Positions 8,801-36,050 of a stretch of DNA of 64,000 bases are shown here, piece after piece. The stretch's first letter is position 1. The number at the start of each line of letters is the position of its first letter. A program made the position numbers and the translations under genes. The DNA comes from Chondrosia reniformis (Eukaryota; Porifera; Demospongiae; Chondrillida; Chondrillidae), in assembly GCA_947172415.1 (NCBI GenBank), contig OX359192.1, forward strand, positions 994,501 to 1,058,500, written 5' to 3'. Below the pieces are notes generated by a model. That model did not search any database and was not told the origin of the DNA. It saw nothing but the letters and a program-made list of their open reading frames with translations.

Positions 8801-9987
8801 GCAATGTATTAGAAATGATACCTGAAAGTCATTAGCAACATCCAGAATGGTCCCCTTGACAAAGATGTCCCTCGGTTCCTTGCTGAGCTGTTTACCGCAG
8901 TGCAACTTGTACACATAGGCTAAGCTGTTGAGCGACCCTTTGGAAATCCAGGCATGCTCCCCAGAATGGGAAATCCCCTTTTTCTTCATCCAAATCTGTC
9001 TCTGCTGGGTGGTCAGGCCAGCAATACACATGTGCAAACTCATCGTGTCCAAGAAACAGGTCCGGGTATTCTGCAGTTGAAATGATTGAGCTCGGGATTC
9101 AACATACAATGAGACTATATACTGATACACTGTAAAATATAAAAAATGGTTTAATTTCAAAAAAATATAAATCTCAGAAAATTAAACTGATAAATTCCTC
9201 AATTAAGAAATATACTAACTTCTATAAAGTACTCCTCTTTGATGCGTGCTCTGTCATAGCTAACATTATGACCAACAATTAGCCTCTTTCTAGTATTCTC
9301 TCTGACCGGCTCTCCGTCAGGCTCCAAAGAAATCAGTTCTCCAAGTGCTCCAAAGGGTTTACTACTCTGATCAACAAGGTGAAGCTCGTTTCTTCCCGCT
9401 GATACGAGACGCTCACTCGTCCATGAGTACCAGTAGTTGGGCGAGAGAGCTGTAGCGAGCACTGGCTGGTGCCCCTCCTCCACACACACCTCCACATCCA
9501 GCACCACTGCCTCCTCATCCAAACAGTGCACGCGCTCCGCTGTGCTGCCATCGTACCGCACCCATCCGGGAGTACACACCCAATACTTTGGTGCCTCTGG
9601 CGGTCGACTGTTTATGAGCTGTTCCGCGAGTTTCGTGTAAGGCTTTGCCATCTCCGTTGCTATTATCCTAAAGTGTTCGTCGATATTGTTCCCAAACAAG
9701 TACGGTAGCTCTAAATCCACCTCTGGAAGAACTCTCGCATCTTCCTTGTCTTTTAGAAGTTCGTACTGATGAAGATGCTCTTCAGCTAATTTAACCTTTT
9801 CCTCTCTAATTTGACAGCTTTGCTTGAATATCTGTTCACGGAGACTTTCCGATATCATTTGAATGCCAAAATGACCTGTTCTCCCTCCATGGTGATGATC
9901 AGAATACCACTTGTGCTTGGATTGTACACTGTATTTCACCAATTTGTATATTTGAAATCTACCTCGAGTTGGCACAATGGCGGCCAT
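2484..9987 (-). CDS. POLG: Mitochondrial DNA polymerase gamma catalytic subunit (complete, 16 exons)
   Basis: Family-A polymerase with 3'-5' exonuclease that replicates mitochondrial DNA in the matrix. Exons (minus): 9220-9987, 8822-9070, 8392-8654, 7784-8041, 7129-7353, 6625-6797, 5935-6082, 5514-5640, 5144-5386, 4707-4846, 4318-4497, 3965-4079, 3652-3786, 3205-3321, 2909-3026, 2484-2542. They sum to 3318 nt (1105 aa plus stop) with every junction in phase; human POLG is 1239 aa. The start is fixed by an in-frame TAA directly before the ATG; the N-terminus is basic and suits a mitochondrial presequence. Exonuclease motif I is VVLDVEV and motif [18 protein letters not shown] (both exon 1). 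Polymerase motif A is [13 protein letters not shown] (exon 9), motif [15 protein letters not shown] (exons 9-10), motif [10 protein letters not shown] (exons 13-14). The C-terminus [19 protein letters not shown] matches the human tail. Exon 5 ends in an acidic run ([16 protein letters not shown]) in the spacer region. All catalytic residues I can check are present, so it should be functional. Confidence 0.97.
2762..2881. repeat. (CA)n microsatellite in the last POLG intron
   Basis: About 120 bp of CA dinucleotides interrupted by CCCA units, between POLG exons 15 (ends 2909) and 16 (starts 2542). Both strands stay open through it, giving spurious His/Thr and Val/Cys reading frames. Confidence 0.97.
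3478..3580 (-). repeat. Dispersed repeat family 1, copy in POLG intron 13
   Basis: Partial copy of a repeat also found at 4867-5045, 14228-14310, 20340-20552 and 39296-39402. On the minus strand it reads [17 protein letters not shown], comparable with [16 protein letters not shown] in the 20.4-kb copy. It sits just downstream of POLG exon 13 (ends 3652) and is intronic because the true next exon ([11 protein letters not shown]) begins at 3321. Confidence 0.7.
4867..5045 (-). repeat. Dispersed repeat family 1, copy in POLG intron 9
   Basis: Nearly full copy between POLG exons 9 and 10. It shares with the copies near 20.4 and 39.3 kb the segment around CCTATAGGGGAACTAAACCT and the word CTAAGATACCATTTTCCTAC, followed by a TTCTTCC-rich stretch and TGGGTCAGACAGCCGTTTCC. 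The orientation is defined by the strand reading [18 protein letters not shown]. Confidence 0.8.
6083..6247. repeat. 31-bp minisatellite at the POLG intron 6 acceptor
   Basis: About five copies of a roughly 31-bp unit (plus strand: CATTCTACATATAAGAGACA then CAGTAGAGGTC). The unit nearest POLG exon 7 (starts 6082) supplies its 3' splice acceptor: on the minus strand each copy reads TCTTATATGTAG followed by AATGG. The array has therefore multiplied the polypyrimidine/AG signal of this intron. Confidence 0.9.
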
Positions 9988-10462: not shown

Positions 10463-13456
10463 CTACATGTCTGTTGCTTGCATTTTTTGGGTAATGAACT
10501 CTTGCACTTGACTGACACTGGGTCTCTGATCAGGGCTGTCATACAGACATTCCAGGATGATTGGTCTAAGAGGATGACCATTCTGGAGTGCTGCTATGTC
10601 CTTCTTGCGCCTCTCAACTTCTGGTTCGTCTTTTATAACCCTGCGTGTTACACTTGGCTTAGCTTGAGTTGCAACTTGCAACATGGTAACTCCCAAGCAG
10701 AAAATGTCACTCTTGCGAGAATACAGCTTATCTTCCTCAAACACTTCAGGAGGCATATACTGGAAATTTCCAGGGGCATCCTCTGTAATGTATGCTTCTG
10801 GGCTAGCTCTAAATTTAGATTGTCCAAAGTCACTAACTTTGAAAATTGTACCCTCTTCATTCACTAGAACATTAGAAGGTGTAAGATCTCGATGTAGGAT
10901 GGGAGTTGGCAGTTCATGGAGATACCTCAGACCACAAGTTATTTGAAAGCAGATATCCAGTTGTTTTAAAGTAGAAAGATTATCTTTGTTTGATTTCAGG
11001 TAACTTCCTAAATCTTCTGACATCAACTCCATAACAAGCAGTACCTTTTCATCATTATCATTTATCTCCTCAAAGAATTCCACAATATTTGGATGCTTAG
11101 CTAATTTGAGCATTTCTGCTTCTTTTTGAAAGGCATGGATAGTTTTATCAACACTATCAGGGTCATAACTTTTGCGATTAAATCTTGAAACACTAATTTT
11201 CTTGATAGCTACCGGCTTTTCTCTGAGTGTTCCTCTACTGACAGTACCAAAAGATCCTGAACCAATTTCTTCTTTAATAATTGGGAATCTGGCTTCCTAA
11301 ACCAACATTAAGGATAGGAATAAAATAACATGCATACACTGTAATTGATAATATTTAAAAGTCTTGTGTAAATGATAGGCATATGCATGGATAGGGATAT
11401 ATGGAGAGTATAGCATTGGGAACTGTAATATCAGAGTTTACTAGCCAAATCAATGATATGTACAAAGCTGATCATAAGGTGTGGCCTGCATGCTACTAAA
11501 TTGAAAGTAAACAGTAATAAACTATACCTTAATTTTATCTTGAATATCTTTTAAATTAACTTGTTCTTTATGAAGCTTATCCAACAGTTCGTACACAAAA
11601 GTTATAGAAGGTCTTACATTTGGATCATTTTCTATGCAATCTACAATAATTGGCTTCAGTACAATATCATCAGAAAGTCTTGCTAAATCATTTTTATGTA
11701 TTTCCCTCACTTGTTGACCACTATGATGCATAACATCACGGCTACCAGTTGGTTTGCGACCAGTGGCTACTTCTGACATAATCACTCCTAACGAAAACAC
11801 ATCACTGTTATCATGCAAGAATATTTCCCTTTTGTCTCTCAGATGCAGTAAGATTTCTGGGGCACTGTACAATTCATCACAAGGAATAGTGTTTCTCAGG
11901 TATATTGCTTGCCCAAAGTCGCTTATTTTAAAGGTTTTACCTCCGCTGCCAACCAACACATTACCAGGTGTAAGTCTGCCATGTATAATTTTTGGAACCA
12001 GTGTATTGAGGTACTTTAAACCTGACGCTATTTGGAAGACTATGCCAACTCGTCTGACTGGAGGAAGGCCTCTATTAACAAGGAGGTAGTCCCATAAATT
12101 CTGATTCAACAATTCTGCAGCAACCTGAATAATATCTGCATAAATACTTTCTTGAAATGCCCCAAAGATCAGAACAATGTTAGCATGCTTAGCTGCTTGT
12201 AACCTCTCAACACTGGCATCTATGTTTCTAATATCCTTTAGCACATATTTAGGTAACCTTTTAATAGCAACAGATCTCAAACGATACTTTCCATCATACA
12301 CAATCCCTGTTGGCCCACAGCCAATAAAACATGAACTTTGAGGAATGCCAGCAGCAAAACATGAACTTTGAGGAATGACAGCAGCAAATAGGTACAACAT
12401 TCTAGGAATTGAGATTAAAAAAAACTCAATTAAAATTGCTAAAATGGAGGCCTTGATCATTGAATATGAAACATCATAAAAATTCTTTGGTACGGAAACT
12501 ATAAAACACACTAAAATTAGCCACAATAGTTCAATTATAATAAAGCGGCAAGACCAAGTGCCTGAAAACCTAACTGCCATATTGAAAATCCTATTCAGCA
12601 AATCTCTATCAGATGATAACAACTCCTTACACCATGATGGAATAAACCACATATATACTGCTTTAGTTCCTTGTATAACCTCATCAAATAGAAATGTAAA
12701 TGCTATGACTCTTAAATACCAGTCCATAAAAGGTGGTGCAGTATCACCGTATGGTCTAGTGAATGCTGTCTGGAGACCAAAGGCCATCACTATGATGTAT
12801 AAGATGTTGACACGCGATGCCATCAAAAGAACAGATCCAATCTTGGACAAAACCATCCATAACATCTCTTTTAAACATATGGCTTTGTAGAAGACTATGA
12901 ATCCTTCAATAAGGTGTTTGGGACCATGTTCACCCAAAATATTGCACAAATACTCGCAAATAATTGCTAGAAAGGAGAGTGATGGAATACCTGAACTTTC
13001 TTCAAAATGACACCAAAATGTCTCACAATAGTCTTTTGTTTTGGAATACTGAAATGTAAAATAATCTAGAACTGAAATAAGTGTTAGGCAAAAAAATATT
13101 TTGAGTGTCCATTGTCTGGACAGCATGGACAGAGCCTCCTTTGTTAGCATAAACTTTGATACTATGTAAACACAAAGCAGTATTGATACGACTACTATCT
13201 CTGAAAAAGGATAGTATTCACGTAAGTATATATTAACTATTGCATTATTAAAACTGCTGGTGAGGTACATTTTCATGAGGTATATCGTGTAGGAGGAGTA
13301 GATAGCAAAAGCAAGCAACACTATGAAGGCTCCATAGAAAAGCGAGATGAGTGTTAGCAGCACCTCCATAATGACATGAAAGATCAAAATTGCAAATTTT
13401 GCCATCATTGGTATTGCCAATTGCAACCACGACAATGAAATCCTCATTTGATGCAT
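10463..13456 (-). CDS. Multi-pass membrane protein with pseudokinase and kinase domains in tandem
   Basis: Two coding exons: 11528-13456 (the open exon reaches an acceptor near 13535) and 10463-11296. The exon-1 end AAG/GTATAG and the acceptor TTTAG/GAAGCC join in phase 0 to give QDKIK-EARFPIIKEEIG, about 920 aa in all. The start chosen is MHQMRISLSW at 13456; an upstream noncoding exon probably ends at the donor near 13599. Residues ~1-370 hold about eight hydrophobic segments. Kinase 1 (~residues 385-640) has GCGPTG, SVAIKRL, SDFGQA and SAPEILL, but the catalytic loop reads IIHGRLTPGNVL, so the HRD aspartate is lost: a predicted pseudokinase. Kinase 2 has GSGSFGTV, PVAIKKI, HRDLTPSNVLV, SDFGQS and MPPEV, all intact. 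The style is TKL-like (HRDLTxxN). The order pseudokinase then kinase recalls JAKs, but the catalytic loop and membrane part do not. A 30-bp tandem duplication gives PQSSCFAAGIPQSSCF just before kinase 1. The membrane portion is not one I recognise; substrate and ligand are unknown. Confidence 0.8.
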
Positions 13457-14319: not shown

Positions 14320-14740
14320 ATAAGTGATATGTACAAAGCTGATCATATAAGGTGTGGGGCCTGCATGCTACTAAATTGAAAGTAAACAGTTATAAACTAT
14401 ACCTTAATTTTATCTTTTATCTTGAATATCTTTTGAACTAACTTGTCCTTTATGAAGCTAATACAACAGTTCGTACACAAAATATGGAAGATCTTGAATT
14501 TGGATCATTTTCTATGCAATCTGCAATAATTGGCTTCAATGCAATATCATCAGAAAGTCTTGCTAAGTCATTTCTACATATCTCCCTCACTCTTGACCAC
14601 TATAATGCATACTTTCTTTAAAAGCATGCAGAGGAAGTTACACACCTTTAAAATTTATAATGATTTCGGTCAAGGATAATTTTAATACGGAAATAGCGGA
14701 AACCATTTAGAACTGTCCATCTCGGATCATGATCTCACTC
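14320..14740 (-). pseudogene. Truncated, internally deleted copy of the membrane-kinase gene
   Basis: 14320-14610 matches 11440-11740 of the neighbouring kinase gene (intron donor region plus the 3' end of its large exon). From about 14615 the match jumps to 13617-13735, the 5' noncoding region. About 1.9 kb, covering the membrane part and most of kinase 1, is missing. The remaining codons carry frame-breaking differences, for example in the part matching the C-terminal end of kinase 1. This is a relic of a tandem duplication followed by internal deletion. Confidence 0.8.

Positions 14741-20036: not shown

Positions 20037-36050
<16,014 letters not shown>

Follow-up and report, generated by a model that had tools for sequence, protein, structure and literature searches.

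The window, a 64,000-nucleotide stretch of the genome of the sponge Chondrosia reniformis, carries what appears from its sequence to be a real protein-coding gene for a multi-pass membrane kinase of the TKL type. The gene lies on the minus strand; its start codon is at 13456 and its stop at 10463, and its two exons have a predicted product of 920 residues (Table 1). The first exon, whose stop-free run of 643 codons (11528-13456) has a chance probability of ~8e-21 at the local base composition, encodes both a hydrophobic N-terminal region (residues 1-362) and, from residue 373 to 643, a kinase-like domain. The assembly, odChoReni1.1, was described in excerpts of its genome note as 117.37 Mb in 14 chromosomes plus the mitochondrion, with an N50 of 8,459,200 and an N90 of 6,903,244 (PMC12181767). 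The genome as searched here comprised 117,379,552 bases in 15 contigs, and the gene was taken as lying on chromosome 4.

Table 1. Positions in the window of the tandem kinase gene, its motifs and its broken copy (a slash marks an exon-intron boundary)
Feature	Positions	Strand	Basis or remark
First coding exon	11528..13456	-	One uninterrupted frame, 643 codons from ATG at 13456
Second coding exon	10463..11296	-	277 residues and stop; kinase domain
Intron between the two kinase domains	11297..11527	-	231 bp, phase 0; same junction in the C6 paralogue
Candidate 69-bp intron 5' of the start codon	13531..13599	-	Sequence: GAG/GTAAAG ... TTATAG/G
Membrane region, residues 1-362	12371..13456	-	Hydropathy; roughly eight hydrophobic segments
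In-frame 30-bp direct repeat, 10-residue unit twice, at the membrane/pseudokinase border	12326..12385	-	Sequence
Pseudokinase domain and linker, residues 373-643	11528..12340	-	Pfam, alignment, AlphaFold2, Foldseek
Beta-3 (VAIK) Lys, retained	12260..12262	-	Alignment
Ser replacing alpha-C Glu	12212..12214	-	Alignment
HGR replacing HRD	11975..11983	-	Alignment
DFG, retained, then 16-residue activation segment	11912..11920	-	Alignment
Kinase HRD	10886..10894	-	Second coding exon
Kinase DFG	10823..10831	-	Second coding exon
Duplicate remnant, no intact frame	14325..14724	-	DNA match

Gene structure and surroundings

The splice sites of the 231-bp intron read AAG/GTATAG after 11528 and TTTAG/GAA before 11296. 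Together with a paralogue on contig C6 (locus L025, described below), these sites indicate that a single protein would span the 11528/11296 junction. The order of membrane region, pseudokinase and kinase had been proposed in a first-pass annotation of this DNA that named no strand, and it is the order found here. The same annotation named, as evidence that would overturn it, a membrane part belonging to a separate gene; this is not what is seen, because the membrane part shares one uninterrupted exon with the pseudokinase and the order recurs in the C6 paralogue. The locus could still be divided at the intron, into a gene for a membrane-pseudokinase protein and another for a separate kinase. 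The first exon does run one further codon in frame to a stop at 11522-11524 within the intron, so that a membrane pseudokinase would be encoded even if the transcript were not spliced. However, the second exon begins mid-frame and has no ATG of its own before the Gly loop, the splice signals are good, and the C6 paralogue is likewise cut in phase 0 at the aligned position, its two parts lying just 62 bp apart; a pair of genes is regarded as highly improbable. Upstream of the start codon, the exon that would precede the candidate 69-bp intron is probably 5' untranslated.

Behind the gene, on the same strand, the next gene downstream is represented by an exon of the mitochondrial DNA polymerase gamma (9202-9987; Pfam DNApol_Exo 1.6e-50). 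On the other side lies a broken duplicate in two parts: 14325-14611 is an 88% DNA match (290 columns) to the last part of the pseudokinase exon together with the intron, and 14613-14724 is a 69% match (122 columns) to the stretch upstream of the gene. An RWD exon matching GCN2 is present on the minus strand at 33138-33479 (Pfam 1.2e-6; PDB GCN2 1.6e-8), and a GCN2 gene probably lies in that region. Short tandem repeats, open in several reading frames, occupy 23713-24099 and 29727-30563, and from 39788 onward there is a satellite array with 73 copies of a 300-nt reference, the spacing among 30 positions listed being mostly 169 bp with jumps of 1127 bp.

The two kinase domains

The first kinase-like domain is recognized by Pfam as Pkinase (5.1e-24). 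It retains the Gly loop, the beta-3 Lys, the catalytic-loop Asn, DFG and PE, and the Asp of HRD is replaced by Arg, as the first-pass annotation had read from the motif HGR with DFG kept. If a pseudokinase is defined by the loss of at least one of the beta-3 Lys, the HRD Asp and the DFG Asp, the domain is a pseudokinase by the missing HRD Asp. Its best solved relatives in the PDB are CTR1, TAK1 and ASK1. AlphaFold2 predicted a kinase fold for it, with pLDDT values of 58-98 over 10-residue blocks, and the matches listed by Foldseek in the PDB (50 of at least 2000) included kinases, among them the pseudokinase MLKL; these matches concern the kinase fold.

The second domain is recognized as PK_Tyr_Ser-Thr (Pfam 8.9e-44). 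The Gly loop, VAIK Lys, alpha-C Glu, HRD Asp, Asn, DFG and PE are all there in the alignment, in agreement with the earlier reading of a kinase with every core motif, and its catalytic loop reads HRDLTPSN. From these residues the domain is expected to be an active protein kinase. In the PDB search with this domain the top match was an EGFR tandem construct, its score covering two stretches, followed by TNNI3K and CTR1, with JAK and WNK1 lower. Solved relatives of both domains are mostly TKL/MAP3K kinases (CTR1, TAK1, ASK1, TNNI3K), with EGFR, WNK1 and ephrin receptors among the rest. A TKL-like type, rather than a tyrosine kinase-like one, is therefore the natural reading, as the first-pass annotation had it, the assignment being by nearest solved relatives rather than by a reference kinome tree. 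Kinase domains are the only ones that Pfam shows at plausible scores in the two exons.

The C6 paralogue and the membrane region

The genome was searched with the kinase domain of the window gene, which gave 140 scored places out of 308 candidates. The best match after the domain itself is a kinase on contig C6 (L025), 58% identical. L025 has one open frame encoding a hydrophobic region and an HGR kinase-like domain, then a 62-bp intron, then an intact kinase, and its gene model has 733 residues. The phase-0 junction of L025 (IK/E) coincides in the alignment with that of the window gene. The occurrence of the same plan in the paralogue argues for one inherited gene plan and against a mis-joined model; the plan is coherent and occurs in two genes of one genome. 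At the DNA level, a pattern for H-G-R-L-[S/T/P/A]-P-x-N matched twice genome-wide, in the window gene and in L025, and the reversed control gave no match. Behind the C6 tandem gene lies a relic-like partial third kinase copy with HRE for HRD (L025 871-1356, minus strand), and a tRNA-Thr (CGT) is found nearby at 702-776 on the same strand.

An alignment of 25 domains was made from 23 full kinases (20 fetched regions and the window) and the two pseudokinases; the partial third kinase of L025, the second kinase of L037, a kinase fragment of L041 and the loci L017, L022 and L024 were left out. Three departures are common to the window and C6 pseudokinases alone among the 25: HGR, the loss of the alpha-C Glu (missing in 2 of 25) and an activation segment of 16 residues, the other domains having 23 residues (22 of 25) or 22 residues (1 of 25). 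The HRD Asp is missing in four domains, the additional two being a C11 domain with HLG and a C7 domain with HGN. In the C6 pseudokinase the beta-3 Lys is replaced by Arg, and an ATP-dependent role would therefore not be common to both pseudokinases. The two are only 32% identical to each other (74 of 228 positions), which is no nearer than either stands to the active domains (34-37%).

In a tree of the 25 domains the active domains of the window gene and L025 are sisters (87/82, below the strong-support mark of the tool). Both pseudokinases form long branches, of 2.0 and 2.8 changes per column, and stand apart in the unconstrained tree. None of the constrained arrangements was rejected by AU tests: p was 0.264 for the pseudokinases as one clade, 0.085 for the two domains of the window gene and 0.158 for all four domains. 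The order of tandem and gene duplication thus rests on the shared oddities rather than on the tree. The tandems of the window gene and L025 are likely to go back to a common origin, given the departures and the junction that they have in common.

Long branches are also what might be seen if the first domain were a recent tandem duplicate losing its function, or if the entire gene were a degenerating copy; the broken remnant alongside the gene (14325-14724) and the partial third kinase after the C6 gene fit such decay. However, there is no stop in 643 codons, both HGR pseudokinases retain the catalytic-loop Asn, DFG, PE and the conserved Asp and Arg, and three identical departures occur in two genes on different contigs. 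Decay is considered very unlikely.

L036 and L040 are further single-domain pseudokinase candidates in the family (HLG on C11; HGN with DIG on C7). Other hydrophobic N-terminal segments in open frame with a related kinase occur in L029 (two), L041 (one) and L033 (one). As judged by eye, L043 has Kelch-like repeats after the kinase, L037 has Kelch-like sequence in a nearby frame, and L044 has cysteine-rich RING/IBR-like stretches before the kinase.

The membrane region of the window gene has eight hydrophobic segments by Kyte-Doolittle windows at a threshold of 1.6 and ten at 1.5. A topology model and hydrophobicity scale, both home-made, gave eight segments at its most permissive setting and six, four, two or none when stricter. 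The "about eight" of the first-pass annotation is thus a fair description; exact number and topology are predictions, and seven segments would be compatible with them. For L025 the hydrophobic region was assigned three segments (Kyte-Doolittle, threshold 1.6) or four (topology model). Over residues 1-370, AlphaFold2 gave 10-residue blocks of 38-80 pLDDT, most below 55, from an alignment of 25 rows; because these values are low, no fold can be named for the membrane part and a fold search with it is not meaningful. Relatives of the membrane part were sought in its own genome (E up to 10, two candidates scored), where it found itself alone, and in Pfam (E up to 5) and PDB chains (E up to 10), where none was found. 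Scans of prokaryote and viral contigs, which see close relatives only, returned 17 pattern stretches and one pattern stretch, respectively, with none confirmed; on these two scans, and within that range of close relatives, the idea that the membrane part came from bacteria or viruses was dropped. The window and C6 membrane parts do not align beyond local shuffles (score 52, against a shuffle mean of 50.2 with sd 8.1, and reached by 194 of 500 shuffles), and a genome search with the C6 membrane part returned that part alone. The membrane part is either very fast-evolving or has been exchanged.

Two other accounts of the membrane part bear on these results. The region may be a mere anchor, for example in an internal membrane, with the pseudokinase as a scaffold and with no sensing through the membrane. 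The unrelated hydrophobic N-termini of related kinases in the genome (L029, L041, L033) speak for this, as does the failure of the window-gene and C6 membrane regions to align, which is expected if hydrophobicity alone matters. On the other hand, about eight segments over 362 residues far exceed the needs of an anchor, and the account is held to be rather unlikely. Alternatively, the region could be a 7TM (GPCR-like) receptor module, akin to the 7TM-kinase fusions of choanoflagellates and sponges, in which ligand binding would directly drive the kinase pair. Excerpts of PMC12716839 report 7TM-tyrosine kinase fusions in sponges and 7TM-TKL/kinase fusions in acanthoecid choanoflagellates, and their 7TM parts are not one family, so the missing similarity would be expected. 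Against a 7TM module, the segment counts favour eight or ten over seven and are three to four in the C6 paralogue; no Pfam family (E up to 5) or PDB chain (E up to 10) was matched, and the model of the membrane part is of low confidence. The same excerpts describe C-terminal kinase domains and mention no tandem pseudokinase-kinase. A 7TM module is considered unlikely.

Comparison with known systems and proposed mode of action

The first-pass annotation knew of no family that pairs tandem kinase units with a polytopic membrane part and a TKL-like loop. As a claim that there is none, this was too strong, as excerpts of three papers indicate (PMC3019232, PMC12716839, PMC11006675). The components are known, namely multi-pass TKL kinases (in oomycetes and choanoflagellates), sponge 7TM-tyrosine kinases and the tandem pseudokinase-kinases of JAKs and plants; in the literature searched, the full combination is apparently unreported. 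That literature, which covered few subscription papers, yielded no animal example of a polytopic pseudokinase-kinase.

The nearest multi-pass relatives in layout are the GPCR-TKL/Ks and GPCR-TKs. Among 176 acanthoecid GPCRs, 92 were reported to have a kinase domain, and GPCR-TKs were reported from choanoflagellates and sponges. In both groups 7TM parts are joined to kinases, and the authors state that they are aware of no member whose function has been tested (PMC12716839). As in the window protein, a multi-pass part is followed by a C-terminal kinase, the membrane parts are unrelated among members, and sponges are included in the case of GPCR-TKs. In contrast, and as far as excerpted descriptions allow comparison, the window protein probably does not have seven segments and has two kinase domains, the first of them dead; its kinase is also TKL-like, whereas that of GPCR-TKs is a tyrosine kinase. 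For Phytophthora infestans, excerpts list 99 TKL kinases predicted to cross the membrane one to nine times, as well as three proteins that carry two kinase domains in tandem; many of the kinases are predicted to be inactive (PMC3019232). This oomycete belongs to a different lineage, and the comparison is with the legend of Figure 3 of that paper, which lists multi-TM and dual-kinase forms. The wheat protein WTK7-TM (Pm36) also has tandem kinase-fold domains on a membrane protein, and both are needed for its function (PMC11006675, excerpts). It differs in its single transmembrane segment, which is C-terminal, in its plant-specific kinase subfamily and in that both of its domains are suspected pseudokinases.

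Two established tandems serve as references for the kinase pair. GCN2 (EIF2AK4) is a pseudokinase-kinase tandem with RWD and HisRS-like domains. It has no membrane part, and the window gene has no RWD or HisRS-like domain (Pfam shows kinase domains only). Identification of the window gene as GCN2 was dropped, the GCN2-type RWD exon being ~20 kb away and not part of the gene. JAKs have a FERM-SH2 N-terminus and a tyrosine-kinase catalytic loop. The window gene has the pseudokinase-kinase order of JAKs, and neither FERM-SH2 nor a tyrosine-kinase loop is present, its N-terminus being hydrophobic and without a Pfam family. JAKs are soluble tyrosine kinases on separate receptors, whereas the window protein has a built-in membrane part and the HRDLTPSN loop. 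In excerpts of PMC4718504, JAK JH2 is described as keeping the Lys, released from the alpha-C Glu, and the Asn, with the catalytic Asp replaced and an abnormally short activation loop. The likeness to the window protein is that a pseudokinase stands N-terminal to an active kinase, lacks the catalytic Asp, keeps the beta-3 Lys and the Asn, and has a short activation loop.

The best explanation as a whole is a multi-pass TKL-type kinase in which a pseudokinase regulates the neighbouring kinase in the fashion of JAKs and is coupled to the membrane domain, and its chances of holding in all parts are put at about even. On this model the N-terminal third would sit in the membrane and both kinase-fold domains would face the cytosol. 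The C-terminal domain would phosphorylate proteins, and the adjoining pseudokinase would act as its allosteric regulator, like JH2 on JH1. By analogy with JAK JH2, the pseudokinase of the window protein may bind nucleotide without phosphotransfer, and through it the kinase would respond to the state or position of the membrane domain. The kinase pair would be held at a membrane by that domain, which may sense something; the first-pass annotation had likewise supposed that the first kinase domain regulates the second and that the membrane part senses or conducts something. A bolder form takes the gene as an independent sponge analogue of the receptor-JAK pair, a polytopic sensor fused to a pseudokinase-kinase in which the kinase is held off until the sensor changes state, in a family with exchangeable sensors; as a whole, this is thought distinctly unlikely.

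In vertebrate cytokine signalling the sensor and kinase parts are divided between the receptor and JAK. If the model is true, early-branching animals came to combine a sensor, a regulatory pseudokinase and an effector kinase in one chain. The gene would also be a further case for the published picture of eukaryotes repeatedly joining kinase domains to multi-pass membrane parts. The two paralogues, with shared pseudokinase oddities and unrelated membrane parts, would be a natural experiment for separating the contribution of the kinase pair from that of the sensor.
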